Shown here piece after piece: positions 10,509 through 46,321 of a DNA stretch of 64,000 bases (position 1 is the first letter of the stretch; every line of letters begins with the position of its first letter). The DNA is from Pseudooceanicola lipolyticus (GTDB lineage Bacteria; Pseudomonadota; Alphaproteobacteria; Rhodobacterales; Rhodobacteraceae). Location: positions 1-64,000 of the forward strand of contig NZ_PGTB01000007.1 in assembly GCF_002786325.1 (NCBI RefSeq), read 5' to 3'. A model generated the notes under the pieces. It had not been told where the DNA came from. It ran no database searches and was given only the letters and a program-made list of their open reading frames with translations. Both the position numbers and the translations under genes were made by a program.

Positions 10509-10520
10509 GGCGCGGCGCGC

Positions 10521-19000: not shown

Positions 19001-22000
19001 CCGACCAGGCGACGGTGACGCTGGACGTGCAAGAAACCTTCGACCTGACGACCTTTGAAGAGAGCCTGCCGACTCCGATCGACCGTGTCGAGGCTGGCGA
19101 GCACATCGTCGCCGCGGTCAGCGCCAATGGCGCAGGCGTCACCTTTTCGGGTCTCGATGGCGAGGGCATCGTCTATGACCCCTCGACCGCCACGGCAGAG
19201 AGTGACGTGGTTACCATCACGCTGGAAGACGGCGCGGGTGTGCAGCGCACGCAGGTGCTGAAGATCGACATCCTGCAGAGTGACCGTCTGTCATTGTCGG
19301 ACGAGGCTACAGCAGGTGACGAAGTCGTCAATTTTGAAGGTCCGTCTATCCAACTCGTTGGAACACTGGCCAATCCGTCAACGGGCAGTATCGTTCATCT
19401 CGACGGGGTCTATGTCGTCAGCACAGCGGGATACGACGGAGGCGACGGTTTCGATATTCTTTCGGCCGGCAATCAGAGCGATCTGGTAGGTACCCGCTTT
19501 GGTCTGGGTTCCCTCGAGAATTTTGAGGTCCTTCAGCTCGGAGCAGGAGCCGATTTTGCCGATCTCACTTTGCTCGCCGAGCCCGCCACAGTCGTTGCGG
19601 CACAAAACGACGATGTTGTTTGGGCGGGTAGCGGCGATGACATGATTTTTGGTCAGGGTGGCGACGACGCTCTTGAAGGTGGTGCTGGGAACGACCTGAT
19701 CTCAGGGGGCCCCGGTAACGACCTGATCAATGGCGGAGCCGACACCGACACGGCTCAGTATTCGGGCAGTCGCTCAGATTACGCCGCCACCGACAATGGC
19801 GATGGCACGCTTACGATCATCGATACGCGCACGGATCCCCGGACGGACGGAACCGACCTGGTCAGCAATGTCGAACTGTTTGAGTTTGCCGACGGCACGA
19901 TCAGCCTTGCCGAACTGCTAAATACCGCTCCCGTAGCGCAGGATGACAGCTTCTCGCTTTCCGAGGATGGCGCGCTGACCGGCGAGAATGTCTTGGCCGA
20001 CAATGGCAGCGGCGCTGACAGCGATATTGATGGCGACACGCTGTCGGTCAGCCTCGTGAGCGATGTCAGCAACGGCGCGCTGACCCTGAACCCGGACGGG
20101 ACCTTTGACTACACGCCGGATGCGGATTTCACCGGCAGCGACAGCTTCACCTACGCGGTCGATGACGGCAATGGCGGCACCGACCAGACCACGGTGACGC
20201 TGGACGTCGGCGCATTGAATGACGCGCCCGTCGCGCAGGATGACAGCTTCAGCCTCAATGAAGATACCAGCCTCACCGGGCAGAGCGTGCTCACCGACAA
20301 TGGCAATGGTGCCGACAGCGATATCGATGGCGACACCCTGACGGTCTCGCTGATTTCGGACGTCAGCAACGGCACCCTGACGCTGAACCCGGATGGCAGC
20401 TTCGACTACACGCCGGATGCCGATTTCACCGGCAGCGACAGCTTCACCTACGCGGTCGATGACGGCCATGGCGGGACTGACCAGGCCACGGTGACCCTGG
20501 ACGTCGGCGCGGTGAATGACGCGCCCATGGCGCAGGATGACAGCTTCTCGCTCTCCGAGGATGGCGCGCTGACCGGCGAGAATGTCCTAGCCGACAACGG
20601 CAATGGCGCCGACAGCGATATCGATGGCGATACGCTGTCGGTCAGCCTCGTGAGCGACGTCAGCAACGGCTCCCTGACCCTGAACCCGGACGGGACCTTT
20701 GACTACACGCCGGATGCGGATTTCACCGGCAGCGACAGCTTCACCTACGCGGTCGATGACGGCAATGGCGGCACCGACCAGGCCACGGTGACGCTCGCGG
20801 TCAACGACCGGCCTGAACTGCCCGGCGAGATCGGCCTCGGCGAGACCGAAGCAGAGACCTTGGTCCTGTCCGGGGACTACCAGGTGGAGGCTATCCCCAA
20901 CCCGGATACCTCCGGTGGCGCGGTGATCAAATCGACCGGGACCGGCTTTGCCACCGGCACCTTCACCGGCGCCGCGGGGGACTACTGGCTGGACGTGGCC
21001 TGGTACAACGAGAACGACGGCGTCTCGCAGTTTGCGGCTCTGGTCAACGGGGTGCAGGTGGCTGCCTGGACCGGTGCAGGAGGCACCGCGTCAGGTTCGC
21101 GCGAGATCGAGCATATCGCGGTCTCGCTGGAGGCCGGTGACGAGATCACCCTGCGGGGGATCAGGGGCGGGGGTGAACCGGCGCGGATCGATACGTTGAT
21201 CGTCACGGAGCGGGAGACCGAGCCGGAGCCAACCGGCGCGACCATCGGCCTCGGCCTCACCGAGGCCGAGGCGCTGGACCTGTCGGGCGCCTACCAGGTG
21301 GAGGCGAATGCCAGCCCCGATTTCTCGGGCGGAGCGATGATCAAGGCAATCGGAACGGATGCCGGCTTTGCCACCGGCACCTTCACCGGCGCAACCGGGG
21401 CCTACTGGTTGGATGTCGCTTGGCTCAATGAGAATGACGGTGTCTCGCAGTTCGCGGTCCTGGTCGATGGGGTCGAAGTGGCGACCTGGACCGGTGCGGG
21501 CGGCGCAAGTTCCGGTGCGCTCGAGACCCGGCATATCGAGTTGACGCTCGAGACCGGCGACGAGATCGTCCTGCGCGGGGTCAAGAATGGCGGGGAACAT
21601 GCGCGGATCGACGCAATCACCATCGGGGCCAGCGACGGCAACAACGCGCCGCAGGCGGTGGATGACAGTTTCGAGACCGAGGCCGGAACATCGCTCACCG
21701 TGGCCGCGCCGGGCATTCTCGACAACGACAGCGATCTCGACGGTGATCCGCTGACCATCGCGCTGGTGACGGATGTCAGCAACGGGAGCCTCACGCTGAA
21801 CGCGGATGGCAGCTTCAGCTACGCGCCCAATGCAGCCTTTGCGGGCACGGACAGCTTCACCTACGAGGTCGATGACGGCAATGGTGGCAGCGACCAGGCC
21901 ACGGTCATCATCGAGGTGGGGGACCTTCCCGACGGCGCCCTGATCGGGATCGGCGATACCGAGGCCGAGGCGCTCGATCTCTCCGGCGCCTATCAGGTCG

Positions 22001-28809: not shown

Positions 28810-29304
28810 GTGGAAAGTAAAGTCTCCATTTTTCCGATCACCCAAGCGACGACAGCCACGTTCACCGAGCTCTATTTCCGTCTTACGTTTTTCTTCTTCA
28901 TCCAACGCGGCAGCAAATATGTTCTCTGCCCAACCCAAGGCGAGGTGATAGGCGAAGAAGGCGACCTGATGATCTTTCCGCCAGGCTCAATGGTCACCGT
29001 AGCGGAACGGCCGAGCCTCTGGTCGACCTGCTCCACCAGCTACGCCGTATCTATAAAACTACATGCGTTCATCGAGGCTCCGATCGAACCACATCGGCAA
29101 GACCATAATGCAGCCACGCAGATGCCAGGCGAAGATCCGTGCAGCGTGCAGCATCCGTCGAAATGGGCTCAAACACCAAATCGCTGCGCGATGGGAATGT
29201 CGCGGGTGGTGGTGTCGGAGGTGCTAGCGCACGGCAACGCTCGACACGATCGCAGCTCCGCAGCGTGCCTTCCCAGAATGACAAGCGCCGGCCACAGCAT
29301 GTAG
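28810..29304 (+). pseudogene. Truncated AraC-family regulator (N-terminal domain only)
   Basis: Starts at a GTG after CAGGGAGCCACC. Residues about 20-75 (YFRLTFFFFIQRG, GEVIGEEGDLMIFPPGS, MVTVAERPSL) match the cupin-like ligand-binding N-terminus of AraC-type regulators. After about residue 80 the sequence loses any resemblance, and no C-terminal double helix-turn-helix follows. The open frame runs on into antisense of the Wzy-like gene and ends at 29304. It is most likely a remnant cut when the EPS locus was inserted or rearranged. A short functional protein cannot be excluded. Confidence 0.55.
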
Positions 29305-30515
29305 GCCTCGATTTCAATATTTTCCCCGAACGACAATAGGACCAAGGTCATCGAGATGCTCAGCGGCAGGTAGCCTCGGGGTGATCTGGCCGAGTCGACC
29401 AGCGACAGCAGCGTCTGCCATGCCAGGGGCACCAGGAGGGCGACAAAGCCGACCAGCCCCTTCACGAACAGCAGCCCCCACCAGGTGTGGTGGCTTCCGA
29501 TCGGCATATATTCAACGAGATGCGGACCGGGCTGTACTGTGCCATGGCCGAACCAGAACGCTTCATTTTGCCAGCGCTCGCCCGCGATGCGCTGTAGGGT
29601 TTCACGGACACGGGTGCTGTCGGCGCGCGCGCCCTTGAAGGCGGCGATACCATCCTTGACCGATTGCAGCAGCGCAGCCCCAAGCACGGCCATGGTGGCG
29701 GAAATGGCAGCGAGAAGCTGCCAGGCCCAGCCTCGCAACAGCAACGGCACCAGGCGCGGTCCCAGCGTGCACGCAACCAGTCCGACAAGACCCATGCGCG
29801 ATTTGGAAAGCAGCACCATCGCGGTGCCGGCGGCGATGCCAATCGCCCGCCACCGGATGTTTCGTTCTTCCATCGCAAAGCAGATCTGCAACACGCCCAG
29901 CAGCGCGGCAAAGGGCGACCATGGCGCGTAGAATTGCCAGCGTGGCGTCCAACTTGCCGGGTCCCAGGTGAAGAAATAGACCGAGAAATATTCGGGGCCG
30001 GGCCCGCCGATCGCTTTGAGTGGCGACGTGAACAGCTTTTCGGGCAGCCCGACATAGGGCGCGACGAACAGAACGGGCAGCAACGCAAGCGTCCACAAAC
30101 CTACGATACACTGGGCGCGAATGATCACCTCGCGCCGGATCGGGAGGATGGCGCCGGCGAAGGGAAACAGCGCGAGCAGCGCCCACCCCTTGGCCCATCC
30201 GATCGAGGACTTGATGGTTTGTTTCAGCCCCAGGCCCCAGTCGAGATGACCGACCCAGAGCGCGACAAGCATAACCGTCATCCCTAAACACCATGCCATA
30301 ACCACTGGCGGAACCGGGCCAGTGGCCTGGAGATCGCGGCGGATGGCCGGCCCGAGGTACAGGGACAGCGCCGCCAACCCGCCCAGCAACCAGGCCAGAA
30401 CAGGCCCTGCCACGTAGAGCGCACCGACAAAGTACAGCGGCCAGGTCCAGACCAGTGTCCGGAAGATCATGGCCTCGGCCGGGTTGTGCGGCTGGATGTC
30501 AGTGCGCGCGTTCAT
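29169..30515 (-). CDS. O-antigen ligase/polymerase-like membrane protein (Wzy type)
   Basis: 448 residues with about ten to twelve membrane segments. It probably polymerises lipid-linked repeat units at the periplasmic face of the inner membrane. The large periplasmic loop in the second half (WFGHGTVQPGPHLVEYMPIGSHHTWWGLLFVKG) has the Gly/His pattern of the O-antigen ligase superfamily. The ATG at 30515 overlaps the stop of the upstream Wzz-like gene (ATGA, 4 bp), so the two are translationally coupled. The other EPS components nearby fit a polymerase rather than a lipid A ligase, but the families cannot be separated by sequence alone. Confidence 0.8.
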   Translation of the reverse strand: MNARTDIQPHNPAEAMIFRTLVWTWPLYFVGALYVAGPVLAWLLGGLAALSLYLGPAIRRDLQATGPVPPVVMAWCLGMTVMLVALWVGHLDWGLGLKQTIKSSIGWAKGWALLALFPFAGAILPIRREVIIRAQCIVGLWTLALLPVLFVAPYVGLPEKLFTSPLKAIGGPGPEYFSVYFFTWDPASWTPRWQFYAPWSPFAALLGVLQICFAMEERNIRWRAIGIAAGTAMVLLSKSRMGLVGLVACTLGPRLVPLLLRGWAWQLLAAISATMAVLGAALLQSVKDGIAAFKGARADSTRVRETLQRIAGERWQNEAFWFGHGTVQPGPHLVEYMPIGSHHTWWGLLFVKGLVGFVALLVPLAWQTLLSLVDSARSPRGYLPLSISMTLVLLSFGENIEIEAYMLWPALVILGRHAAELRSCRALPCASTSDTTTRDIPIAQRFGV

Positions 30516-31993
30516 TCCGCGGCCATAAGGGGCGCGTGGATCGGCTGCACCGGGTTGTGCAACAGCCGGGAGATCAATGATTTTCGAAGCCAGCCGAGAA
30601 GCAGGCCAAGCAAGAAACAAAATGTCGCGGCACAACCGGCTGCAACAGCCAGCAGACGTTTGGGGGAAGAGGGATCTGTAGGCAACGACGGGTCCTCCAA
30701 TACCTGGACCAACGGATACGAGGCGTAGACATCGGTTTTGCTGGTCTGCGTTCGCGCCATTGCAGAAGCAAAAACAGCTTCGGCCACGGCGAAATCGCGC
30801 TGGAGGTCTTCCAGTTTCGCGGCCGGTTCGATCAGGCTCAGCTTGCGCGCTTCTGCGGCTTGCAATCGAATTGACATCGCCTGGTATTCTGCGGCCAGAC
30901 CGGCGCGCTCGGCTTCCAGGGTCACAAGATCGCTCAACAACCCGGCGCGGCTGCCGACATGGCTGAGATCGAGATCTTCAAGCTCTGATGCCTTCAGCCC
31001 CGTCAGGGCGTGGGCCCGGTTGAAGGCCTCGTGTTTAGTGGCACGTTGGCCGGTCTCTGCCGCCAGCACTTCGGGGTGCTTGTTGCCATAGCGGCCGCGG
31101 GCCATGGACAGCGCAGCCGCCTGCTCCGACATCTGTTCGGTCAAGGTGGTGAATTCGGTGTCGGCATGAAGGCGGAGGGCCGCGGCCGCCAGATGGGGTT
31201 CGGTCCCGAGAGTGATTTTCAAAGCGGAGACAGCTTCGGTTTTTTCCTCCAGTTCGATCGCCAGTTCCGCCAGCGCCTGCGCCTGGCCATCGGTTTCAGA
31301 GACCAGTTCGTGATATTGAGCGGCCGAGATAAGACCGGTTTCGCGCTGAAGTCGCGAGATCTCATTGCGGGTGGAAAGCACCGATTGCCGGTATTCCTCG
31401 ATCGCATCGCGCCCGCTGTCTTCGCGAGTGACCACCTCGTCATTGCGCAACGCCTCGATCTCGCTGAAAAACGCATCAAGCAAGGCCGCACCGCGCCGTT
31501 GGGCGTCTTCCGGCGAGTTGCCGGTGATCGAGATGTGAATAAGGCTGGTCTGGTCCACCAGCTCGATCCGCGCCTTGCCGAAATCTCGGGTCTTCATGTG
31601 CATGGCACCGGCCGCGGTATCCAGAATGCGACCGGCGCCAAGCAGACGCTTGTAGGTTTCGGTAGGGCTGACCGCATTATTGGAGAAGGCCGAATTGGCA
31701 AACGAGGATGCCTGCCCGATACGATCGAGGTTGACCGAAGCAGAGGCGCCCGATCCCGGCAGAATCAGAGACATGGTGCTGGTGTATTTCAGCGGCGCGG
31801 TTTGAAGGTAGCTGACGATCGGCGCCCATATGCAGAGGACGCCAATTGCAAACAGGCCGACATAGCGGGGCAGGCGCCCGGTATCATTGAGCCGCCCCCC
31901 GCAAAGCAGGCGGGCGGGTGACAGCTGGCGCAACGGCACTCGGACCAGACGCGGCAGAGAGAATTGATTCAATTTGAAATTCGGGCGTGGCAT
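30512..31993 (-). CDS. Polysaccharide co-polymerase / chain-length determinant (Wzz/GumC type)
   Basis: 493 residues. It has an N-terminal membrane segment (GLFAIGVLCIWAPIVSYL, about 47-64), a long periplasmic part with coiled coils (EEYRQSVLSTRNEISRLQRE; LAELAIELEEKTEAVSAL), and a second membrane segment near the end (AAGCAATFCFLLGLLLGWL). This is the Wzz/PCP-2 layout. No cytoplasmic Tyr-kinase domain is attached, and no separate kinase gene is seen here. It controls chain length and cooperates with the Wza-like export lipoprotein encoded at 37839-39053. A CTATCC-N4-GGATAG-like site lies 92 bp upstream of its start. Confidence 0.88.
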   Translation of the reverse strand: MPRPNFKLNQFSLPRLVRVPLRQLSPARLLCGGRLNDTGRLPRYVGLFAIGVLCIWAPIVSYLQTAPLKYTSTMSLILPGSGASASVNLDRIGQASSFANSAFSNNAVSPTETYKRLLGAGRILDTAAGAMHMKTRDFGKARIELVDQTSLIHISITGNSPEDAQRRGAALLDAFFSEIEALRNDEVVTREDSGRDAIEEYRQSVLSTRNEISRLQRETGLISAAQYHELVSETDGQAQALAELAIELEEKTEAVSALKITLGTEPHLAAAALRLHADTEFTTLTEQMSEQAAALSMARGRYGNKHPEVLAAETGQRATKHEAFNRAHALTGLKASELEDLDLSHVGSRAGLLSDLVTLEAERAGLAAEYQAMSIRLQAAEARKLSLIEPAAKLEDLQRDFAVAEAVFASAMARTQTSKTDVYASYPLVQVLEDPSLPTDPSSPKRLLAVAAGCAATFCFLLGLLLGWLRKSLISRLLHNPVQPIHAPLMAAE

Positions 31994-32084
31994 TTGCGTT
32001 TCTCCTTGCCCAGGGTTCTACACCTGGCGCCAGGATCATGCGCGGCTGCGGAAGGATGTCTGCAGGGGGCAATCGAGAATGGAA

Positions 32085-32100
32085 CTACCCCATCGGATAG
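32085..32100. promoter_or_regulatory. Candidate EPS operator, site 1 (upstream of the wzz-wzy operon)
   Basis: Sequence CTACCC-CATC-GGATAG: one mismatch to the inverted repeat CTATCC-N4-GGATAG. It ends two bases before the stop of the LuxR-type regulator gene (minus strand) and lies 92 bp upstream of the Wzz-like start. Confidence 0.6.
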
Positions 32101-32101
32101 G

Positions 32102-32713
32102 TCAGAACAGGCCCTTGTCACGCGCGATCATCGCGGCCTGCGTCCGGTTTGACGCGCCGATCTTGCGATACAGCGTTTTCACATGCAGCTTGACCGTCGG
32201 TTCACGAATATCCAGATCGCGCGCGATTTCTTTGTTCGATTTGCCCTCTGTCAAACCTTGCAGGACCTCGATCTCGCGCTGCGAGAGGGATTTCGCCAAG
32301 GGATGTTCCGGCTCGTTCTCCGCGGCGCGAAGAAAATCCAGTGGCGCATATTGTTCGCCCATGGCCATGAAGCGGACGGCGTTGATCAGCGACTTGGCAG
32401 ACAGCGTTTTCGGCAGGAACCCCGCGGCTCCGCTGGCCAGCACCTCTTCGGCAACTTCGCGTTTTGCGGTGCCCGAAATGATCGCAACGCGCTGTCCGCC
32501 ATCCATACCCATGATGCGTTCAAGCCCGGCTAGACCGTTCATCCCGGGCATGGAATAGTCCAGCAGGACCAGGTCGAACGAGTCCTTGGCTACCAGTTCC
32601 TCGGCGCTGGCCAGATCTGGCGCAGTCACCGTTTCGATGCCGCCCTCGCTTTCCAGGAACAGGACCAGCGTATCGCGCAGCAACTCGTGGTCGTCGGCGA
32701 TCAGTATTCGCAT
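32102..32713 (-). CDS. LuxR/NarL-type response regulator
   Basis: 203 residues. The receiver domain (1-120) opens with MRILIADDHELLRD, has the phospho-acceptor in LVLLDYSMPGMNG (Asp52), and the conserved Lys near FLPKTLSAKSL. The C-terminal LuxR helix-turn-helix (about 140-200) contains LSQREIEVLQGLTEGKSNKEIARDL, with VKLHVKTLYRKIGASNRTQAA. The ATG at 32713 is fixed by a GGAGGGAGCGAA ribosome-binding site; the longer frame is not supported. It probably receives phosphate from the hybrid kinase encoded at 35273-37864, which has its own HPt domain, and controls the EPS genes. A CTATCC-N4-GGATAG site lies 170 bp upstream, so it may also regulate itself. Confidence 0.9.
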   Translation of the reverse strand: MRILIADDHELLRDTLVLFLESEGGIETVTAPDLASAEELVAKDSFDLVLLDYSMPGMNGLAGLERIMGMDGGQRVAIISGTAKREVAEEVLASGAAGFLPKTLSAKSLINAVRFMAMGEQYAPLDFLRAAENEPEHPLAKSLSQREIEVLQGLTEGKSNKEIARDLDIREPTVKLHVKTLYRKIGASNRTQAAMIARDKGLF

Positions 32714-33067
32714 TTCGCTCCCTCCTGTCGCACCGGACTTCTGTGAAAAGTTGCGTTGCTGGATCAGCATATGTGTGTCTCCGGAATTCGGCATCAACAA
32801 ATCGAAGAACTTGACTCGATTTTCAGATGTCGCAGTAAGCACGAACAAATTGGCAAAAACAGGGCGCCCACGGATACCGCGGCTATCCAACCGGATAGGT
32901 GCCTGCAATCCGATCTCAAACATTGCGATCCCTTGGGAGGAAAAGGCTAGTTGATCAGCCCCGATCACTCCTCCTTTGACCCCGCTTACTGTCCTCTCGG
33001 GCTTTTGAAAGCTTGGGTGAATTCATTGCAAGTAACTGGAAACGCAATCAAATGAGGAGCGTTCCCA
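32714..33067. promoter_or_regulatory. Divergent promoter region with EPS operator site 2
   Basis: 354 bp between the LuxR-type regulator and the divergent WecG-PHPT fusion gene. The inverted repeat CTATCC-AACC-GGATAG (a perfect match) sits at 32883-32898, exactly 170 bp from each start codon. This equal spacing suggests one site serves both promoters. No other feature was recognised. Confidence 0.65.
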
Positions 33068-34483
33068 GTGACCTATCTCAGCGACTTTCAGTTCTCCGGC
33101 CCGGCACCCACTGCCGACACCGCGCGCGCGTCCAAGCGGGTCGAAGCCCCGTCTTTCGGCCATGTCACCCTATTCGGGCTGCCCGTTGTCTCGGCTTCGA
33201 CGCCGGCCGTTGTGGAACGGCTTCTGGCACCCGGACGACGCAGCCGGGTTGCATTTCTGAACGCCCATTGCGGGAATGTGATGGCGCGCAACCCGGACTA
33301 TGCGGATGCGCTGCATACGGCGGATATGGTGCTGCCCGATGGCATCGGGGTCGAACTGGCAGCGCGCATGGGAGGGGACACGATCCGTGAAAATCTCAAT
33401 GGGACAGATTTCGTTCCCGCGCTGTTGGCCGAGGCGGGGAGGCGGGGCCTGAGTGTCTTCCTGTTCGGTGGTCGGCCCGGCGTCGCCAAGGATGCCGCCG
33501 ACAAGTTGTGTTTGAAGATTCCAGGTCTGCGCGTGGTCGGAACGCGCGACGGGTTTGAGGGCTCGGCCGATACCGGCGCCGCGATCGCGGCGATCAACCG
33601 GGCGCGTCCCGACATCGTCCTTGTCGCCATGGGTGTGCCCCAGCAAGATCTGTGGTTGGCGCGCAATGCGCGGCACCTCGATGCACGCATCACATTGGGT
33701 GTCGGCGCGCTGTTCGATTTTCTCTCCGGCCGTGTCCGACGTGCCCCGAAGATTGTGCGCAAAGTGAAATGCGAGTGGATTTGGCGATTGGCGATGGAGC
33801 CGCGTCGAATGGCCAAACGCTATCTGATCGGCAATTTCTCATTTCTCGCCCGCTCTGCAATCCACGCCATCGCCAGGACCGATCGGATCGCTGTCGCGCG
33901 CCGGGGTCTTGACCTGACGATTGCCCTGACTGCCCTGGCTGTTTTGCTGCCGTTTTTTATCTGCCTGGCCCTTGCGATCCGGCTGGACAGCCGCGGGCCG
34001 GTCCTGTTCCGACAGACCCGGATCGGGCGCGACGGTCAACCATTCGAGATGCTGAAATTCCGGTCGATGTATGCGGATGCCGAAGCGCAGCGCGCGGCTC
34101 TCTTGCTGCATTCGGATCGCGACGGCGTGTGTTTCAAATCGCGTAGCGATCCGCGGATCACGCGGATCGGCAGGATTATGCGCCGCTTCTCGATCGACGA
34201 ATTGCCGCAAATCCTGAACGTGCTGCGTGGCGAGATGGCAGTTGTCGGCCCACGGCCGGCCTTGCCAGAGGAAGTTCTGGCCTATCACGACCGCGCGCGC
34301 GAACGCCTTGAGGCGAAACCCGGACTGACCGGTATTTGGCAGGTTTCAGGCCGTGCCGAGATCGGTTTTGAGAAGATGATCGACATGGACCTCGCTTATG
34401 TCCGGTCGCGGACGATCGTTCTCGACCTCATGCTTGTCTTGCTGACATTCCGCGCAGTGGTCGGAGGTCGTGGCGCCTATTGA
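33068..34483 (+). CDS. WecG/TagA/CpsF glycosyltransferase fused to a polyisoprenyl-phosphate sugar-phosphotransferase
   Basis: 471 residues in two domains. Residues about 30-255 are a WecG/TagA/CpsF (GT26) glycosyltransferase: FLNAHCGNVMARNPDYADAL, DMVLPDGIGVE, NGTDFVPAL and VGVGALFDFLSGRVRRAP. Residues about 275-471 are a bacterial sugar transferase (PHPT): one membrane segment, then RIGRDGQPFEMLKFRSM, SIDELPQILNVLRGEMAVVGPRPA and KPGLTGIWQVSGR. The C-terminal half probably puts the first sugar phosphate on undecaprenyl phosphate, and the N-terminal half adds the next sugar, so both steps of repeat-unit start would sit in one chain. The start is a GTG at 33068 after AGGAGCG. It probably acts at the inner membrane. 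Confidence 0.9.
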   Translation: MTYLSDFQFSGPAPTADTARASKRVEAPSFGHVTLFGLPVVSASTPAVVERLLAPGRRSRVAFLNAHCGNVMARNPDYADALHTADMVLPDGIGVELAARMGGDTIRENLNGTDFVPALLAEAGRRGLSVFLFGGRPGVAKDAADKLCLKIPGLRVVGTRDGFEGSADTGAAIAAINRARPDIVLVAMGVPQQDLWLARNARHLDARITLGVGALFDFLSGRVRRAPKIVRKVKCEWIWRLAMEPRRMAKRYLIGNFSFLARSAIHAIARTDRIAVARRGLDLTIALTALAVLLPFFICLALAIRLDSRGPVLFRQTRIGRDGQPFEMLKFRSMYADAEAQRAALLLHSDRDGVCFKSRSDPRITRIGRIMRRFSIDELPQILNVLRGEMAVVGPRPALPEEVLAYHDRARERLEAKPGLTGIWQVSGRAEIGFEKMIDMDLAYVRSRTIVLDLMLVLLTFRAVVGGRGAY

Positions 34484-34628
34484 CGACGCCAGCCGGCGGT
34501 GAAGGTGCGTGGATCACCTCCAGCCCTGGAACGAGGGGCAAGGGGACAAACCCTAAGTCGTCGGACTGAAAACCTCGCTTGGTCAGACCTATCGCTTCAC
34601 GGGCGGTAAGTTGCCCGCACACCGCCAC

Positions 34629-34644
34629 CTATACGATCGGATAG
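34629..34644. promoter_or_regulatory. Candidate EPS operator, site 3 (upstream of the PruR-like gene)
   Basis: Sequence CTATAC-GATC-GGATAG, one mismatch to the repeat, in the 240-bp gap between the WecG-PHPT gene and the PruR-like gene, 79 bp upstream of the latter's start. It places the signalling pair under the same control as the EPS genes. Confidence 0.6.
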
Positions 34645-34723
34645 GTGCCCTGCACCGATGCGCCGATGACGCGGCACCGACAGCCGTGGCATAAACCACT
34701 TGGTCACATTCGGAGAACTTCAC

Positions 34724-35239
34724 ATGTCTTGCTTCAACCTGCCAAAGCTTGTCTTGGCTTCTCTTTTTCTCATCGCCCCTTTACGCCTTTATGCTGCGGA
34801 ACTCGCTGCGCCGGAGGGCGAAGTCATTCTGGTCATCAGTGGCGACATCGGCGTGACCAACGTTGGAGATACTGCGCAGTTCGACCGGGACATGCTGGAA
34901 CAGCTCGGCGTGGTTACGATCGAGACCACCACGATATGGACAGAGGGACTGCAAACTTTTACTGGCGTGCCGTTGGCCCAACTGATGGACGTGGTGCAGG
35001 CCCGCGGGAAAACCCTCAGCGCAACCGCCATCAATGATTACGCCGTGGACATACCCGCCGAAAATTGGGGTGAAACATGGCCGATCGTCAGTTTTCTTCA
35101 CAATGACGAACCCATGTCGATTCGCGACAAGGGACCCCTCTGGATCGTCTACCCCTACGACTCGAACCCCGATTTTCAGACCGAAGTGATTTATTCTCGT
35201 AGTATTTGGCAACTGGATCGGATCATCGTGAAGGACTGA
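34724..35239 (+). CDS. Periplasmic SUOX-fold pterin-binding-like protein (PruR-like)
   Basis: 171 residues with a signal peptide (LVLASLFLIAPLRLYAA, cleavage near AAELAA). The mature part (VILVISGDIGVTNVGDTAQFDR; TFTGVPLAQLMDVV; WPIVSFLHNDEPMSIRDKGPLWIVYPYD; SIWQLDRIIV) resembles the molybdopterin-binding fold of sulfite oxidase. However, it has no Cys in the mature part, so the usual Mo ligand is absent. Agrobacterium PruR has the same fold, binds a pterin in the periplasm and controls a membrane signalling partner that governs attachment and c-di-GMP. The next gene here is a hybrid kinase with a periplasmic loop, which fits a PruR-like partner. The start at 34724 follows CGGAGAACTTCAC. PruR function is inference. 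Confidence 0.65.
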   Translation: MSCFNLPKLVLASLFLIAPLRLYAAELAAPEGEVILVISGDIGVTNVGDTAQFDRDMLEQLGVVTIETTTIWTEGLQTFTGVPLAQLMDVVQARGKTLSATAINDYAVDIPAENWGETWPIVSFLHNDEPMSIRDKGPLWIVYPYDSNPDFQTEVIYSRSIWQLDRIIVKD

Positions 35240-35272
35240 GCTTCGAAGACATCGGGTTAAAGGGAGGTGCGC

Positions 35273-37864
35273 TTGGCTGGCACTGAATCAAACTGGCGAC
35301 AGCGCACCGTTTGGACGCGCACCTCCGCAATCGTCCTTTTGCTGGTGTTTTGCATGGGGACAGTGGCCAGTATGGCTTGGCTCGTGCTGCGCGAAATCGA
35401 TGAATTGAGCACTGCCAACTCGGACAACCTGCAATGGAGTCTGGCACAGGCAGATGTCGAGTTCCTGAAATTCGAACTGGCCGTGAACGAGGCCTTGCGG
35501 AATCCGGAAAATCTCCGCGAGGTTCGGCGGCGGTTCGATATCTTCTACAGCCGAATGCAGACGCTGCAGCGTGGGGAGGTGTTTCAGGCGCTGAGGTCCG
35601 AACCCGAATTCGAACAGTCCCGTCAAGGAATTGAAAACTTTCTCTCTACAAGCGTGTCGCAGATTGACGGTACCGATCAGGCTCTGGTCGATGCGCTTCC
35701 TGCAATGGCGTCAGCTGCCAAGCAGGCCGCCGCGGACGTTCGCCAGATTTCGCTGTCAGGCTTGGCGGCCTTTGCCAAGCTCTCCGATCAGCGCCGCGAG
35801 GAAGTTGTGCAGAGCTTGGTCCGTGTGTCCATTGTGTTGGCCGTGCTTTTGGGCGGTCTGTCTCTTTTGGCTTATTCATTCAACCGGCTTTACCGGTCTG
35901 CCGAGCAGAATGCGCTGGCTGCGCAACGCGCAAGCACGCGCAGTCGCACGGTTGTCGAAGCCGCAGCCGATGCGATCATAGTTTGTGACGACGACGGTCA
36001 CGTCGTTGAGATGAACGCGGCCTCCCAAAATCTGTTCGGGTATTCCCGCGACGAAACGTTCGGATGCCCGGCGCTTGAGTTGTTTCAACCGCCAAGCGTT
36101 CGGGGCGCAGTTCTCGATAGGCTGATCAAGGCGACAGAAGACACAGAGAACCCTGAGGCTCACCAACGTCAGGTCGAAACCATTGCCGTTGATCGGGCAG
36201 GGCGCGAATTCCCTGTCGAAATTTCGATGGCCAAGGCCGAAGCGGCGGGGGAACGGGTATTTGTCGCGCATATCCGGGATATTTCCAACCGCAAGGCCGC
36301 CGAGAAAGGGCTGACCGAGGCGCGCGACCGGGCACTGGCGGGCGAAAAGGCCAAAGCCGAGTTCCTGGCCTTGATGAGCCATGAAATGCGTACGCCGCTG
36401 AATGGGTTGCTAGGCACCATGGACCTGCTGCGCGACCACAAGTTGACCGAGCGACAAACCGATTTGCTGGATCATATGCAGTCGTCAGGGCACTTGCTTT
36501 TGGGCTTGGTGAACGATGTCTTGGACCTGTCGAAATTCGAGGCAGGCAAGCAGCGGGCAGAAACGCGGCCCTTCAATATCACACGTCTGCTGGATGGCGT
36601 GGTTGAAACGACAATGAGCCTGGCCGCGGCAAGTGGAAATTCAGTCGCTTGGTCTTGGCAAGGAGAACCGGATGCACAGGTTCTCGGCGATTCCAGACGT
36701 CTGCGGCAGGTGCTTCTGAATCTGGTGAGCAATGCGATCAAATTTACCCGTGCGGGAACGATCGATATCGAGGTGGAGCGTCTGCCGGGGCAGGAGGATC
36801 TGGTCGAATTTCGGGTGATCGATACGGGGATCGGCATCGCCCCGGAAAATCTGGCACGCATATTCAAGGATTTCGAAACGCTGGATTCTTCTTATGCACG
36901 GCGGGCCGGGGGAACCGGTCTGGGACTTGGCATCTCCAAGCGTTTCGTCGGCCTGATGGGGGGCGAGATCGGCGTCGAAAGCGAACCGGGCGAGGGCAGC
37001 ATGTTCTGGCTGCGCGTCCCGCTTCCCGTCGAGGAGCAGGGGTCGTCGGATACGACCAACACTGCCAAAAAGACCCCGGATGCCGACGGGGTCGCCCGGC
37101 CTTTGTCCATTCTTCTGGTCGAGGACAACGAAATAAACAGATTTGTTGCCCGCGCCATGATCGAAGCCGAGGGTCATACCGTGACCGAAGCCGTTAACGG
37201 CAAAGCCGGCGTCGAATGGGCGCAGGCGCAGGAATTCGATGTGATCTTGATGGATATCTCTATGCCCGTGATGGACGGGCAGGAGGCTGCCCGGGCCATC
37301 CGCGCGGGCAATGGCGCTTCGGCCAATAGCCCGATCGTGGCGGTCACGGCCCATGCGCTGCCAGAAGAGATCGCCGGATTTAAGGCGGCGGGGATGAAAC
37401 ACTGCATCAGCAAACCGATCGACCGCAAAGCTTTGCTTGGGCTGCTGAATGAGGTGGCAATCCGGACGGAGCATCCGGAACCAGGCCCCACGGCGCAGGA
37501 GGCTTTGCTGCTGGACACGAATATTCTGAATGAATTGCGGGACACGCTTGGAGCAACCCAGACCGCACGGCTGATCGGAAAATGTATCAACGAGCTTGAT
37601 ACCTCCATTCAGGAGTTAACGGAAACCGCCACGGATGATCGAGCGTTGGGTTCCACCGCGCACAAATGCGCCGGATCGTGCAGCTCTTTCGGGATGGTCG
37701 CGATGCGGCGGGCGCTGGGGCGGATCGAAACTCAAGCGGCCAACGGGTCCGTCAAGCGGCAAGACCTACAGGCGCTCGCGTCGGTCTGGGAAGACAGCAA
37801 GCTGGCTCTGCAGGTTTGGGAGGCGACTGGAGAACCCGTCAGTCGACTAACGCGCCCAGCGTGA
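35273..37864 (+). CDS. Hybrid sensor histidine kinase (TM-periplasmic-TM-PAS-HisKA-HATPase-REC-HPt)
   Basis: 863 residues in the inner membrane. Domains in order: membrane segment near 20-40, a periplasmic loop of about 140 residues, a second membrane segment (SIVLAVLLGGLSLLAYSF), PAS (about 225-340), HisKA with ALMSHEMRTPLNG (His370), HATPase (LVSNAIKFTRAG; DTGIGI; GTGLGLGISKRF), a receiver (VILMDISMPVMDG, Asp661) and an HPt domain (TAHKCAGSC, His797). The relay can pass phosphate to a separate regulator, most likely the LuxR-type protein encoded at 32102-32713. The start is a TTG at 35273, six bases after AGGGAGG, rather than the GTG at 35267 inside that site. It follows the PruR-like gene by 33 bp. 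Its 3' end overlaps the convergent Wza-like gene by 26 bp. Confidence 0.92.
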   Translation: MAGTESNWRQRTVWTRTSAIVLLLVFCMGTVASMAWLVLREIDELSTANSDNLQWSLAQADVEFLKFELAVNEALRNPENLREVRRRFDIFYSRMQTLQRGEVFQALRSEPEFEQSRQGIENFLSTSVSQIDGTDQALVDALPAMASAAKQAAADVRQISLSGLAAFAKLSDQRREEVVQSLVRVSIVLAVLLGGLSLLAYSFNRLYRSAEQNALAAQRASTRSRTVVEAAADAIIVCDDDGHVVEMNAASQNLFGYSRDETFGCPALELFQPPSVRGAVLDRLIKATEDTENPEAHQRQVETIAVDRAGREFPVEISMAKAEAAGERVFVAHIRDISNRKAAEKGLTEARDRALAGEKAKAEFLALMSHEMRTPLNGLLGTMDLLRDHKLTERQTDLLDHMQSSGHLLLGLVNDVLDLSKFEAGKQRAETRPFNITRLLDGVVETTMSLAAASGNSVAWSWQGEPDAQVLGDSRRLRQVLLNLVSNAIKFTRAGTIDIEVERLPGQEDLVEFRVIDTGIGIAPENLARIFKDFETLDSSYARRAGGTGLGLGISKRFVGLMGGEIGVESEPGEGSMFWLRVPLPVEEQGSSDTTNTAKKTPDADGVARPLSILLVEDNEINRFVARAMIEAEGHTVTEAVNGKAGVEWAQAQEFDVILMDISMPVMDGQEAARAIRAGNGASANSPIVAVTAHALPEEIAGFKAAGMKHCISKPIDRKALLGLLNEVAIRTEHPEPGPTAQEALLLDTNILNELRDTLGATQTARLIGKCINELDTSIQELTETATDDRALGSTAHKCAGSCSSFGMVAMRRALGRIETQAANGSVKRQDLQALASVWEDSKLALQVWEATGEPVSRLTRPA

Positions 37865-39053
37865 ACACACCAATCAATCGCCCGATTTCTCCCAGGTTGG
37901 TGACCCCGCTGTCATAACAGGCGATGGCATCTCCGGGGAGCACATAGGGGTCATAGTCATCACGATCCGCGCGGGTGCGCAGTTCTTCGACGCGCCGTTC
38001 GATCACGACGGAAACACCCGTGACGGGATTGCGTGAGAATAGCGCTGCCGATCGGTCTGCACTGGTGGCTCGGGCGCCGCCAACACAGTTCGCGTCGATC
38101 ACTGCCTGCAAATAGCGGGTTCCATATGGCACCTCGCGCACGCCTTGCGAAACCGCCGCCGCGGCGTTGTTGTTCGCGGGCTGGGTCAGGTTCGACATGT
38201 AAAGCGATACGCCCGGCGGACTGACCGGGCTCGGCGTCATCAGTTCGTCCTGAAAACACTGCCGTGACGGAACATAAACCTCGTCTCCGGTCACCAGCAT
38301 GATGTCATCGAAATGTCGCCCGTCGACGGCGCCACGGAGGTCGACAATATGATTGGTTCCTGCCCGGGTGATGCGCACGGCGGACAGGTCCGCATCGGGG
38401 CGCACTCCGCCGGCACTGCGCAGCGCGACCGACAGGTTGCGGCCTTCCGTCGAGGCGCCCAAGGCGGCCTGCCGGCGCGAGTCCACCTGATCGCCCTGAA
38501 CCCCGCCGATATCGCTGGCCTGCGGATCGAAGACGGCACCGGAAACCCCGATGCGTACGGGGGCAAAATCCATCACCAGCAGAGACAGGGCTGGTTCGTC
38601 GACATAGAAGCCACCCGCGACAAGCTTGCGGCGGATCTCGGCCGCGACCTGCTCGGTCCGCCGGCCCTGTGCCGGGATCGGGTCGAGAAACGGTATCTTC
38701 AGCATCCCGTCACGAGAAACGACGAACTCACCGGTGAAGGTCTCGTCATTGGGCACGCGCAGATCGATCAGATCGCCGCGTGACAGCAGCTCGCCGCGCA
38801 AAGCGTCGGGCAGATAGGTGCGAAGCTTACCAGCACCCGCCGAACCGCTGTAAGGTTTGCACCGCGATGCGTTCATCAGGGCCGAGCGCAAAGTCGGACT
38901 GTCGGCGGCGGGGCGTTCCAGATCCCTATATTGCGCCTGGTAGGACTCGCCGCGCGACACTGCCTCGATATTGGCGGGGGTTTTGCCCCCACACGCGGCC
39001 AAGGCAATTATCGCCAGTGTGCTTGCCGCATTCCGGGCACTGGTGCGGGCCAT
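37839..39053 (-). CDS. Polysaccharide export outer-membrane lipoprotein (Wza/GumB type)
   Basis: 404 residues. The N-terminal signal ends in the lipobox LAACGGK, so the protein is anchored at the outer membrane. A polysaccharide-export (poly_export) domain follows (LLSRGDLIDLRVPNDETFTGEFVVSRDGMLKIPFL), then SLBB-like segments (VRIGVSGAVFDP; ITRAGTNHIVDL; DDIMLVTGDEVYVPS). It forms the outer-membrane channel for the EPS and pairs with the Wzz-like co-polymerase. The ATG at 39053 is chosen because GGAGCAG precedes it and the signal peptide begins there. It is divergent from the Wzx gene across a promoter region that holds operator site 4. Confidence 0.92.
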   Translation of the reverse strand: MARTSARNAASTLAIIALAACGGKTPANIEAVSRGESYQAQYRDLERPAADSPTLRSALMNASRCKPYSGSAGAGKLRTYLPDALRGELLSRGDLIDLRVPNDETFTGEFVVSRDGMLKIPFLDPIPAQGRRTEQVAAEIRRKLVAGGFYVDEPALSLLVMDFAPVRIGVSGAVFDPQASDIGGVQGDQVDSRRQAALGASTEGRNLSVALRSAGGVRPDADLSAVRITRAGTNHIVDLRGAVDGRHFDDIMLVTGDEVYVPSRQCFQDELMTPSPVSPPGVSLYMSNLTQPANNNAAAAVSQGVREVPYGTRYLQAVIDANCVGGARATSADRSAALFSRNPVTGVSVVIERRVEELRTRADRDDYDPYVLPGDAIACYDSGVTNLGEIGRLIGVFTLGALVD

Positions 39054-39146
39054 GAATTTACTGCTCCGGGTTTTTCTCGTCTTGGTTGATCGCGAATCTA
39101 AACGCAGTGGTGACACTACGTCCACAAGCACGCGCGGCTAGGCGTC

Positions 39147-39162
39147 CTATCCAACAGGATAG
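39147..39162. promoter_or_regulatory. Candidate EPS operator, site 4 (between wza-like and wzx-like genes)
   Basis: Perfect inverted repeat CTATCC-AACA-GGATAG within CCTATCC...GGATAGG, 94 bp from the Wza-like start and 113 bp from the Wzx-like start, so it could serve both divergent promoters. Confidence 0.65.
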
Positions 39163-39274
39163 GCCGATAGTCCGTTGCTTCTTTGCACTGTCCGCGCGCG
39201 CCTCGGACAGGCTGAGCCATCTGGTTTAGGCATGACCCAGCCGGAATAGGCCCCTCAGTCTCGGAAGTGCCACC

Positions 39275-40513
39275 ATGTTCAAGACCAATCGCATCGGTCC
39301 CTTTCTTCGCCACCTGATGGCCTATCTGCTGTCGGAAATGGCTGCCAAGGCGTCACGGCTGCTGGTTGTCATCGCCGTCGCGCGTTCGATGGATGCGGCG
39401 GCCATCGGGGTTGCCGCAATTGCACTGGCCGCCGCAGATATTTTCAAGTCTCTGACTGAAAACGGCGCAGGCCAGCGCATCATCGCCGCACCTGCGGACC
39501 GGCTGGACGCGACCTGCCGGACAGCCAGCCGCATTTTCTGGGTGTGGTGCCTCGGGCTGTTCGCAATTCAGCTGGTGATCGGCGCGGTGATCTGGCGGAT
39601 CAGCGGCGAAGCCACGCATTTTGTTTTACTCGCAATCCTGGCGGGGGAATACCTCTTCATGCCGGCCGGCCTGGTGCAATGCGCGCTGGCGATGCGGGCC
39701 GGAAAGCTGCGCCAGACTGCGGCGATCTCTGCCGGTCAGGTGGTCAGTGCCAATACCGCGTCGGCGGTGCTGGCCTTCGTTTTTCCGGGGCCTCTTGCCC
39801 TGGTCCTGCCTCGGCTGTTGGCGGCCCCGGTCTGGTTGGTCTGCATGCGCCGTTTGCATCCCTGGCGCCCGGACCCGCGCGTTGCTCTGGCCCCGGTTAC
39901 CCCCTTTATCAGGTATGGTTGGGCGGTTCTGGGCGTTGAAGTGGTCAAGGCGCTACGGCTGCAAGCCGACAAGCTGGTCATCGGCGCTATGGCCGGGACG
40001 GAAGTGCTGGGGCTCTATTTCATGGCGTTCAACGCCGGTCTCGGCCTGGCGAATTCCTTCGCCCAGGCGTTTGCGATCGCCTTGTTCCCGCATCTCTGTT
40101 CGGCCGAGAACCGCGACCGCGCCCTGCGCGGGGCGCTTGGGCTCAGCACGGCGGTGATTTCCGTCATCGTGGTTCTTCAGGCTTTGGCTGCGCCCTACTA
40201 TGTGCCTGTCCTTTTCGGCGACGGCTGGGACGGGATCGCCGAGGTGGTGTCGATCCTTTGCCTGGCAGCCATCCCTGCGGTGATCTGGAGCGGTGCGGCA
40301 CAATGGCTGCGCAGCCAGGAACGGCCGCAATTCGAATTTGTCGTCACCGTCGTGGTCACGCTGGCGCTGGTCGCGAACACGGTCCTGATGATCCCTCACG
40401 GGCTTACCGCCGTGGCCTGGGGCTATCTGATCATCGCCACTGTGACCCAGATTGGCGCAGCTGTTCCGACCCTTGCGTCGGCTTTCCGCAACCCCATTGC
40501 AAAGGTCGCCTGA
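39275..40513 (+). CDS. Polysaccharide flippase (Wzx / MOP family)
   Basis: 412 residues with about twelve hydrophobic segments. It is probably the flippase that moves lipid-linked repeat units across the inner membrane. The family pattern is seen in LRLQADKLVIGAMAGTEVLGLYFMA and in the repeated membrane pairs (VISVIVVLQALAAPYYVPVLFG; VAWGYLIIATVTQIGAAVP). It is the first gene of a four-gene operon with three glycosyltransferases; the next starts one base after its stop. The start at 39275 has no strong ribosome-binding site (TCGGAAGTGCCACC). Confidence 0.88.
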   Translation: MFKTNRIGPFLRHLMAYLLSEMAAKASRLLVVIAVARSMDAAAIGVAAIALAAADIFKSLTENGAGQRIIAAPADRLDATCRTASRIFWVWCLGLFAIQLVIGAVIWRISGEATHFVLLAILAGEYLFMPAGLVQCALAMRAGKLRQTAAISAGQVVSANTASAVLAFVFPGPLALVLPRLLAAPVWLVCMRRLHPWRPDPRVALAPVTPFIRYGWAVLGVEVVKALRLQADKLVIGAMAGTEVLGLYFMAFNAGLGLANSFAQAFAIALFPHLCSAENRDRALRGALGLSTAVISVIVVLQALAAPYYVPVLFGDGWDGIAEVVSILCLAAIPAVIWSGAAQWLRSQERPQFEFVVTVVVTLALVANTVLMIPHGLTAVAWGYLIIATVTQIGAAVPTLASAFRNPIAKVA

Positions 40514-44644: not shown

Positions 44645-46321
44645 TCAAAGCGAGAAATCGGTATCACTTAGAGCTATTGCACCTGTCAAGATAACGCGGA
44701 AATCTGCTTCCGAATTGCCGTCCAAATCGGCCAGGATGATCGTCTTGTCTTGTTGAACTTTCCTTACGTAGCGCAACTCACCTGTGCTGTCGGAAAACTG
44801 GTTCCGCCCGATAAACGTTAGCTCCTGATTGCCGGGGGTGTCGTCGTCGGCGTCGAGTGCGGTCAGGTCGATCAAGTCCACGCCGGTCCCGAACTTTTTC
44901 AGCAAGTCTGGCGCCTTGGGATTGCTCTCCTTGGCGTGGCCGAACACGAACACGTCCCGCCCCGCACCGCCGATCATCACATCGGCCCCCTTACCACCCT
45001 TTAGAAGGTCGGCCCCGCCGCCGCCCACCAAGGTGTCGGCGCCTGAGCCGCCTATTACTTTGTCCTTGCCATTGCCGCCGTTCAGAATGTCGCGCCCCGC
45101 ACCGCCAAGCAGGGTATCGTCGCCTGCCTCACCCCTAAGCGTGTCATTTCCACCTTTGCCCAGGATCACGTTATCGTAGCGATCCCCAATCAGCTTGTCT
45201 GGGTCCCTGGTCCCGACCAGCCTCGACGGCACAGGTGTCGCAACGGTTACGGCGACGCCGCTGCCATCGTTGCTGCTGTTGGAGCTCTCGTTGTTGCCTT
45301 CCTTGCTTTCGGCAATCTTGTCATCGTAGTCGGCAATGACGCCGATGTAGTAGGTTTGGCCTTCAACAACCCAGTTTGGCAAAGTGACCGACGCGCTCAC
45401 GTCATTGTAGTACTTTCCCGCTGTATGGCTGGCAAAGGATTTTGTGGTCAGCAACGTGTCTGCAGTGGATATGATGGAATTCGTCGAAAGATAAACGCCC
45501 GCCACGGACCCAGCCGCGTTGGCGTCGCCTATGTTATGGACGTCGAATGTTACGGTCGTGGTGTCACCCGCAGCTGGGGAGGTGTCGGCGACTTTCACAT
45601 CCTCTGCCGTTAGGTCAGGCGAACCCGTGGACCCTGTGGGTATGGTTACGGCGACGCCGCTGCCATCGTTGCTGCTGCTGGAACTCTCGTTGTTGCCTTC
45701 CTTGCTTTCGGCAATCTTGTCATCGTAGTCGGCAATGACGCCGATGTAGTAGGTTTGGCCTTCAACAACCCAGTTTGGCAAAGTGACCGACGCGCTCACG
45801 TCATTGTAGTACTTTCCCGCTGTATGGCTGGCAAAGGATTTTGTGGTCAGCAACGTGTCTGCAGTGGATATGATGGAATTCGTCGAAAGGTAAACGCCCG
45901 CCACGGACCCAGCCGCGTTGGCGTCGCCTATGTTATGGACGTCGAATGTTACGGTCGTGGTGTCACCCGCAGCTGGGGAGGTGTCGGCGACTTTCACATC
46001 CTCTGCCGTCAGGTCAGGCGCGCCTGCCGCCAGATCGAGGGCAGCTGCCGAGGCGCCAGACAGTTCAATTTTGTAGTCAAGAACATCGTTTGGCATTACG
46101 GCGCGCAACGCATCGCGGTCGTTCTTGCCCTCGACTGCGATACCATCAATGTTCCCTTGGAAAAGTTTTGAAACAAGATCGGGGATAGGTATCGGGGGTA
46201 CTACAGGCACTGCTCCTGTGTCAGAAACCAAGTCTTCGGTGATGGCTCCATATATCGCAAGTTTCGCGTCCTTCAGTGATCTGACGCTTAACTTGCTCGG
46301 TCCGAAAATGAACAAAGCCAC
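44645..46321 (-). CDS. Secreted CARDB/RTX calcium-binding protein
   Basis: 558 residues, no N-terminal signal peptide. The first 100 residues are unassigned. Two CARDB adhesion-type domains follow (PDLTAEDVKVADTSPAAGD...NWVVEGQTYYIGVIADYDD), nearly identical to each other. Then comes an RTX region (GKGGNDTLRGEAGDDTLLGGAGRDILNGG and on) and a C-terminal part of the hemolysin-type secretion domain (FGTGVDLIDLTALDADDD; IILADLDGNSEADF). It is probably exported by a type I system and bound to Ca on the cell surface. No ribosome-binding site stands out near 46321. Flanked by an IS5 element and an IS5 fragment, so possibly acquired. Confidence 0.85.
   Translation of the reverse strand: MALFIFGPSKLSVRSLKDAKLAIYGAITEDLVSDTGAVPVVPPIPIPDLVSKLFQGNIDGIAVEGKNDRDALRAVMPNDVLDYKIELSGASAAALDLAAGAPDLTAEDVKVADTSPAAGDTTTVTFDVHNIGDANAAGSVAGVYLSTNSIISTADTLLTTKSFASHTAGKYYNDVSASVTLPNWVVEGQTYYIGVIADYDDKIAESKEGNNESSSSSNDGSGVAVTIPTGSTGSPDLTAEDVKVADTSPAAGDTTTVTFDVHNIGDANAAGSVAGVYLSTNSIISTADTLLTTKSFASHTAGKYYNDVSASVTLPNWVVEGQTYYIGVIADYDDKIAESKEGNNESSNSSNDGSGVAVTVATPVPSRLVGTRDPDKLIGDRYDNVILGKGGNDTLRGEAGDDTLLGGAGRDILNGGNGKDKVIGGSGADTLVGGGGADLLKGGKGADVMIGGAGRDVFVFGHAKESNPKAPDLLKKFGTGVDLIDLTALDADDDTPGNQELTFIGRNQFSDSTGELRYVRKVQQDKTIILADLDGNSEADFRVILTGAIALSDTDFSL
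45246..45623 (-). repeat. Internal duplication, copy A (within CARDB/RTX gene)
   Basis: Nearly identical to 45645-46022 at an offset of 399 bp (133 codons). Only scattered single-base differences were seen, for example GAAAGATAAACG against GAAAGGTAAACG. Confidence 0.85.
45645..46022 (-). repeat. Internal duplication, copy B (within CARDB/RTX gene)
   Basis: Second copy of the 399-bp-period duplication described for 45246-45623; each copy encodes one CARDB domain and its Ser/Asn-rich linker. Confidence 0.85.

Follow-up and report, generated by a model that had tools for sequence, protein, structure and literature searches.

How does a small exported protein of the pterin-binding type, encoded next to a hybrid histidine kinase inside an exopolysaccharide (EPS) cluster, pass on its signal? 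The question is raised by a pair of genes, pruR and a kinase gene, in a stretch of 64,000 nucleotides from Pseudooceanicola lipolyticus (contig NZ_PGTB01000007.1, positions 1 to 64,000; hereafter the window), for which a preliminary description had proposed a distinct version of pterin signalling with transcription of EPS genes as its output. By our comparison, the pair almost certainly represents a PruR-DTB system, and it is probably wired to transcription of the EPS cluster through a chain that would run from PruR to the kinase, a response regulator of the NarL/LuxR type and a palindromic operator. The mechanism first proposed was largely borne out by the comparison, except for its being a distinct kind: among the sections covered of the review PMC13259868, section 8 already describes kinase-type PruR systems as the PruR-DTB class, including an example from Ruegeria pomeroyi DSS-3, so that the pair belongs to a known kind and the claim was too strong.

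By its sequence, the 171-residue protein, whose length fits the approximately 170 residues of this group, is PruR. In phmmer searches against solved structures it matched PruR of Agrobacterium tumefaciens (7kos/7kou, E = 4e-42; 7rkb, E = 6e-41) and the V. cholerae protein 7kp2 (E = 3e-19), and the PruR profile matched solved PruR at 5e-61. Asn80, Tyr82 and Trp138 of the mature protein, which lie 22 positions below residues 102, 104 and 160 of the A. tumefaciens protein, are invariant in 36 aligned relatives, and the equivalents of N102, Y104 and W160 are present in 130, 130 and 131, respectively, of the 131 PruR proteins accompanied by a DTB kinase and the regulator. These matches and the retention of the pterin-site residues uphold the identity first proposed; in A. 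tumefaciens PruR, Tyr104 and Trp160 bind the pterin and Asn102 is tied to specificity (PMC13259868, sections covered). The AlphaFold (AF2) model has a pLDDT of 95.1 and a pTM of 0.89, and the N-terminus, read by eye, is hydrophobic, as would suit a secretion signal and a periplasmic location. PruR-like matches occurred in 110 of 198 genomes of the family, among the matches listed there, and 121 PruR loci were examined (117 from other genomes, two other copies from the same genome, the window and locus L305), with G006:C62, G021:C77, G174:C33, G195:C41 and G195:C44, among others, and most of the weakest matches left out; a second set comprised the best 80 of 103 loci from named genomes. In most fetched loci pruR precedes the kinase gene, and the pair is widely kept across the family, a point on which the proposal had been staked beforehand. 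As side observations, in L238, L245 and L246 (approximately 10464-12040) PruR is followed by an open frame that does not encode a signalling protein and that we take, from its N-terminal sequence, to be SelO-like, and of the 489 plasmid records that gave a PruR-like hit at E<=1e-5, 252 come from Klebsiella.

The kinase carries PAS, HisKA, HATPase, REC and HPt domains by Pfam, which found no GGDEF or EAL domain in it, the kinase domains standing in their place. Two transmembrane segments, located by eye at approximately residues 17-40 and 184-206, enclose a loop of about 143 residues, in agreement with the loop of about 140 residues and the REC-HPt relay originally noted. The sensor region (residues 30-208) was modelled as all-helical (pLDDT 94.2, pTM 0.78), and its periplasmic stretch contains the sequence WSLAQADVE (W57-E65), an instance of WX7E, the motif that DcpA and DTB proteins have in common (PMC13259868, section 8, as covered). 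When the DTB sensor profile was aligned by hhalign with a profile of DcpA-type sensors, built from the GGDEF-EAL partners of PruR in six Brucella/Ochrobactrum-type loci, the two matched with a probability of 88% (E = 3e-6) over 67 columns including the motif, while against solved structures the sensor profile gave no convincing relative by sequence (best E 0.04, unrelated names). Because of the motif and the profile match, the kinase is, as far as sequence can tell, a DTB protein, of a class already published. Across 144 full-length kinases (both sets pooled), the motif columns hold Trp in 137 and Glu (116) or Asp (24) in 140; a literal search for W-x7-E retrieved 57/80 family kinases and 53/64 named kinases, counts that are lower because changes of W to Y or F and of E to D go uncounted. 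The phospho-residues are similarly kept, H372 in 143, D663 in 142 and H799 of the HPt domain in 140 of the same kinases.

The regulator was recognised by Pfam as a REC-GerE protein (Response_reg and GerE, run on the longer open reading frame to 32968), its best NCBIfam match being NarL (1.6e-30, below the cut-off), and its residue D52 is kept in 93/93 relatives. No close second copy was found in its own genome, where the next best match has 29% identity over part of the protein. An orthologue, called at >=120 bits within the fetched stretch, lies near 69/80 full-length DTB kinases of the family loci and 62/64 of the named loci, which agrees with the earlier assignment of the kinase as partner of PruR and of a LuxR-type protein as output. 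Regulator and HPt histidine go together: among the 144 kinases, 131 have both, nine have the HPt histidine only, four have neither, and none has the regulator only. Two of the 11 family loci without a nearby regulator (L059 and L128) have pruR at a contig end, the regulator of the same genomes being found where a different contig ends (L291 and L298); in L133 the regulator lies 12.2 kb away. Seen from the other side, 60 of 92 regulator hits (>=200 bits, family search) have a pruR hit no more than 10 kb away, the distance being at most 2 kb for 47 of these and the median 0.94 kb. On these grounds the kinase very likely relays to this NarL/LuxR-type regulator.

Where would the regulator act? In 13 loci, each from another genus, the EPS cluster shows a common order, wzz-regulator/glycosyltransferase-pruR-kinase-export/flippase, and the recurrence of the regulator beside PruR-DTB kinases, with the EPS cluster in these 13 loci, is what the survey of gene neighbours originally suggested was able to add. 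The genera in which the cluster was seen include Ruegeria, Sulfitobacter and Leisingera. The operator pattern tried first, CACCTATN8ATAGGTG, matched twice, a number that chance would also give; once a third site had been seen, CCTATCCN4GGATAGG took its place, and since this consensus was chosen after viewing the window, the 12 other loci are the test. The window has five matches at <=3 mismatches against 1.53 expected, and at <=1 mismatch the 5.23-Mb genome has three places, all in the EPS locus, with none for the backward pattern. Four gaps were defined per locus (some of them extended 30-40 bases into an adjoining gene, and a few with an additional gene inside), and the best sites in the 52 gaps were perfect in 19, with one mismatch in 14, two in 11, three in two and at least four in six; 44/52 gaps accordingly hold the palindrome at <=2 mismatches. 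All 33 sites with <=1 mismatch in the 13 loci, including all 30 of those in the 12 loci besides the window, fall in gaps; these cover 17,865 of the 299,198 positions.

The palindrome also follows the regulator across genomes. At <=1 mismatch, 79 sites were counted in the 35 genomes whose regulator scores >=240 bits (backward control, 5), 52 in the 47 genomes with a moderate regulator of 185-240 bits (control, 14) and 30 in the 116 genomes without a regulator of >=185 bits (control, 25). A position weight matrix (PWM) was built from 45 sites and scored upstream of pruR against 30 shuffles outside the 13 training loci, some named loci repeating training species; a site beat all 30 shuffles in 51/53, 40/54, 9/19 and 10/62 loci, in order from a close regulator to none nearby. 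In the family triads of pruR, kinase and regulator, a site at <=3 mismatches is present upstream of pruR in 38/69, and the spacer of four stands out, giving 38/69 (shuffled, 1), with 0-10/69 (shuffled, 0-4) for spacers of 0-3 and 5-12. We consider it quite likely that the regulator binds CCTATCC-N4-GGATAGG. The operator copy credited to the pair by the preliminary description corresponds to a candidate site upstream of pruR (operator C in Table 1), which lies outside the span 34724..37864 described for the pair. A sigma-70 scan returned no promoter-like site (shuffles, 1.9), so the position of the sites gives no argument for an activator or a repressor, and a tree test of pruR against operator yielded five independent pairs only, too few to decide. 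As possible further targets, operator copies lie beside group 1 glycosyltransferases at L065 1501 and L090 1501, the former with a weaker regulator hit approximately 6 kb away and the latter with a pruR at approximately 8 kb.

Loci with another sensor clarify which partner the operator belongs to. L294 (genome G004) has retained the genes for export, flippase, Wzz, glycosyltransferase and regulator, together with operator sites at 9777 and 14542; its stretch yielded neither pruR nor DTB, and a 997-codon open frame (GAF, PAS, kinase, REC) stands directly before the regulator gene. Likewise, in L302 a PAS-kinase-REC frame stands directly beside the regulator gene, with two operator sites and no glycosyltransferase match in the stretch. 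Since operator and regulator persist under other kinases in these loci, the operator tracks the regulator rather than PruR, where it was seen, and the PruR-DTB pair looks like one input module of the regulator. Other arrangements were noted in passing. In one genome (G089), the EPS cluster has a DTB kinase without pruR (L287), and a pruR, preceded by a weak match to the operator, is on a different contig (L101), pruR apparently having been split from its kinase. The genome of P. lipolyticus itself holds a third, diverged PruR (29% identity; G000:C354:14836-15189, L046 8413-10265) beside a 486-codon kinase frame with a W-ITSQLQF-E motif of its own.

The proposed mechanism can be set out as follows: (i) PruR would be exported and take up a reduced pterin, as its homology and kept residues suggest; (ii) loaded PruR would contact the helical WX7E domain of the kinase and alter its activity, by analogy with Agrobacterium DcpA, a pterin-stimulated contact that we infer for this pair; (iii) phosphate would pass from His372 to Asp663, His799 of the HPt domain and Asp52 of the regulator, all of them residues that are present; and (iv) the regulator would bind the palindromes found before wzz, its own gene and the glycosyltransferase, the pruR-kinase pair, and the export and flippase genes. 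The outcome would be direct control of EPS together with feedback on the sensor, and either sign of the pterin effect, on or off, fits. More broadly, we lean towards a roseobacter-wide, pterin-gated phosphorelay that acts through a dedicated NarL/LuxR-type regulator on the EPS palindrome, by-passes cyclic di-GMP (c-di-GMP) and has a sensor exchangeable with other hybrid kinases. If this holds, pterins outside the cell or in the periplasm would affect, by way of a phosphorelay, how genes for the biofilm matrix are transcribed, and with a named regulator, DNA site and target cluster in many marine bacteria, a single reporter and a small number of deletions could suffice to test pterin signalling.

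Two alternatives concern what PruR binds or does. Public records label the protein "molybdopterin-dependent oxidoreductase", and it has a weak Oxidored_molyb hit, as would suit an ordinary sulfite oxidase-type subunit with a molybdenum cofactor; this reading is scarcely credible, as the protein adjoins a DTB kinase, has no cysteine ligand, its sole Cys being residue 3 in the signal region (as first noted, the mature part has none, and only 5/131 of the relatives with DTB and regulator have a Cys within the mature region), and the PruR profile, at E<=0.01, finds four solved sequences, 7kos, 7rkb and 7kp2 (named as pterin-binding proteins) and 7kom (named by domain), with no sulfite oxidase among them. 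Of the sulfite-oxidase-like fold described at the outset, the strong match to PruR structures stands, whereas the Pfam match to Oxidored_molyb is sub-threshold (E = 0.086). Alternatively, the architecture may be right and the ligand other than a free pterin, i.e., another small molecule or a redox state, or PruR may assist the kinase constitutively, as a co-factor. The persistence of a DTB-like kinase without adjacent pruR in some loci would suit this option, and the relevant pterins are among the open points of the review (PMC13259868, section 14, as covered). We regard it as unlikely in view of the near-invariant Y104 and W160 equivalents, the strong match to solved PruR and an enzyme elsewhere in the genome: of 36 SDR matches, 12 were fetched, and one (L195, C376:2431-3168) has TGAAKRLG and YTIAK, in keeping with the pteridine reductase motifs TGX3RXG and YX3K (PMC13259868, sections covered). 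It passes NF006597 ("SDR family oxidoreductase"; 347 against a cut-off of 281), its next best match being the pteridine reductase model NF006598 (165, below cut-off), with TIGR02685 also below cut-off; the genome likely encodes a PruA-like enzyme. A pterin is, on this evidence, the likely ligand of PruR. In a separate observation, pD4M1C of Paroceanicella profunda (L310, 7362-11910) carries a PruR-EAL pair, next to which lie an SDR gene and, divergently oriented, a gene for 6-carboxytetrahydropterin synthase.

The kinase and the regulator might also be neighbours rather than partners, with another kinase driving the regulator or another factor binding the palindrome. That the regulator is found with other kinases or with none could be so explained, as could the 31/69 family triads in which no site was recognised ahead of pruR at <=3 mismatches, which mean that the operator is not universal. 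Set against this are the co-occurrence of the HPt histidine with the regulator, the replacement kinases of L294 and L302, which stand directly beside the regulator gene as partners would, and the number of sites where the genome has no such regulator, which is close to the control (30 against 25), and we judge the explanation improbable. Several further observations weigh against the partnership of PruR, kinase, regulator and operator that we prefer. As regards the regulator, 32/92 hits (>=200 bits) have no pruR hit within 10 kb; the EPS cluster and regulator of Alloyangia pacifica have no pruR-kinase pair between the glycosyltransferase and export genes; among 20 selected regulator loci (19 being strong hits >10 kb from a pruR hit, and the 20th, L305, beside one), five have a DTB-like kinase and regulator without adjacent pruR, and no operator site was seen in L286, L289, L290 and L291; and the second PruR-DTB pair of the same genome (G000:C11:42844-45948, L045 9920-12949; PruR 72% identical), situated in a different region of polysaccharide genes (Poly_export, sugar transferase, GT2), has neither the regulator nor the operator in its vicinity. 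As regards the operator, genome-wide matches at <=2 mismatches number 11 places against eight for the backward control, scarcely above it, so that weaker matches alone mean little; the syntenic EPS loci L103 and L114 each have one gap only with a site at <=2 mismatches; and recognition-helix residues look much the same whether or not the regulator has a site close by. Furthermore, the named set overlaps the family set by at least six loci (L208, L209, L215, L221, L237 and L247), neither the sets nor related loci being independent, and the literature searched gave no pterin-binding or EPS experiments in this group, roseobacter PruR included.

The features are collected in Table 1. The pruR and kinase genes, a putative operon with 27 bases between them on the same strand, have a glycosyltransferase/sugar transferase fusion of the WecB type on one side and, on the other, a polysaccharide export gene convergent with the kinase. 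Outside the EPS cluster, the window encodes a 3112-residue cadherin-like/RTX adhesin upstream (13069-22407; Pfam Big_9, Cadherin_4/5, HemolysinCabind) and a protein with CARDB and RTX repeats downstream (44645-46321).

Table 1. Genes and candidate operator sites of the EPS locus in the window
Feature	Coordinates	Strand	Basis or remark
Probable O-antigen ligase/polymerase	29169..30635	-	Position only, after annotated Ruegeria sp. B32 cluster; no Pfam match
Chain-length (Wzz-like) protein	30512..31993	-	GNVR E = 6e-4, below Pfam cut-off; same place in 13 EPS loci
Candidate operator A, 2 mismatches	32084..32101		Between wzz-like gene and regulator 3' end; PWM 23.8
NarL/LuxR-type response regulator, 203 aa, proposed terminal relay receiver	32102..32713	-	Response_reg + GerE
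Candidate operator B, 1 mismatch	32882..32899		Divergent regulator/glycosyltransferase gap
WecB/TagA/CpsF + bacterial sugar transferase fusion (EPS priming)	33068..34483	+	Pfam 3e-59, 4e-62
Candidate operator C, 1 mismatch	34628..34645		Upstream of pruR
pruR, exported pterin-binding-type protein, 171 aa	34724..35239	+	phmmer to 7kos, kept N/Y/W, AF2 model
DTB-type hybrid histidine kinase, 865 aa, GTG start; TM - WX7E helical periplasmic domain - TM - PAS-HisKA-HATPase-REC-HPt	35267..37864	+	Pfam, conserved residues, sensor model
Polysaccharide export protein (Poly_export), convergent with kinase	37839..39131	-	Pfam 2e-11; true start may be downstream of the open reading frame start
Candidate operator D, 0 mismatches	39146..39163		Divergent polysaccharide export/flippase gap
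Oligosaccharide flippase (Wzx-like)	39275..40513	+	Pfam 1.6e-28

The branch that leads from the regulator through the operator to EPS is apparently new for PruR-DTB systems. No description of it was found in the literature searched, the 2024 PNAS paper that the review cites for PruR-DTB lying outside that search; in PMC13259868, the sections covered leave the targets of kinase-type PruR systems unanswered, and "response regulator", "LuxR" and "exopolysaccharide" occur 0 times in the main text as covered. The EPS work on Phaeobacter inhibens (PMC10984933) names no LuxR protein or histidine kinase in the part seen, and the glycosyltransferase of the window finds four matches among plasmids at E<=1e-60, Phaeobacter contributing none of them, the presence of P. 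inhibens plasmids in the collection being unchecked.

Compared with known systems, the closest likeness is to R. pomeroyi DSS-3, in which a two-gene pruR-kinase operon encodes a DcpA-type periplasmic domain with WX7E and a PAS-HisKA-HATPase-REC kinase; relative to that system as described in section 8 (PMC13259868, as covered), the present locus adds a C-terminal HPt domain, a linked NarL/LuxR-type regulator, the operator and the EPS target cluster. With PruR-DcpA of A. tumefaciens it shares the binding-site residues of PruR, a related sensor domain and the control of surface polysaccharide (here proposed), whereas the output proposed here is a phosphorelay and transcription rather than c-di-GMP synthesis or breakdown. 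The regulator resembles the NarL/FixJ response regulators in its REC-GerE architecture and inverted-repeat site and differs from them in the 7-4-7 palindrome, with a spacer of four by far the commonest, and in its EPS targets. Finally, the TorT-TorS-TorR system also combines a periplasmic binding protein with a REC-HPt hybrid kinase, and the kinase described here has the TorS/BaeS-like core of the DTB class, in which PAS and REC are optional, and TorS as its best NCBIfam match (3e-117, below its cut-off); PruR, however, is not a binding protein of the TorT type, and a regulator of the NarL/LuxR type differs from one of the TorR type.

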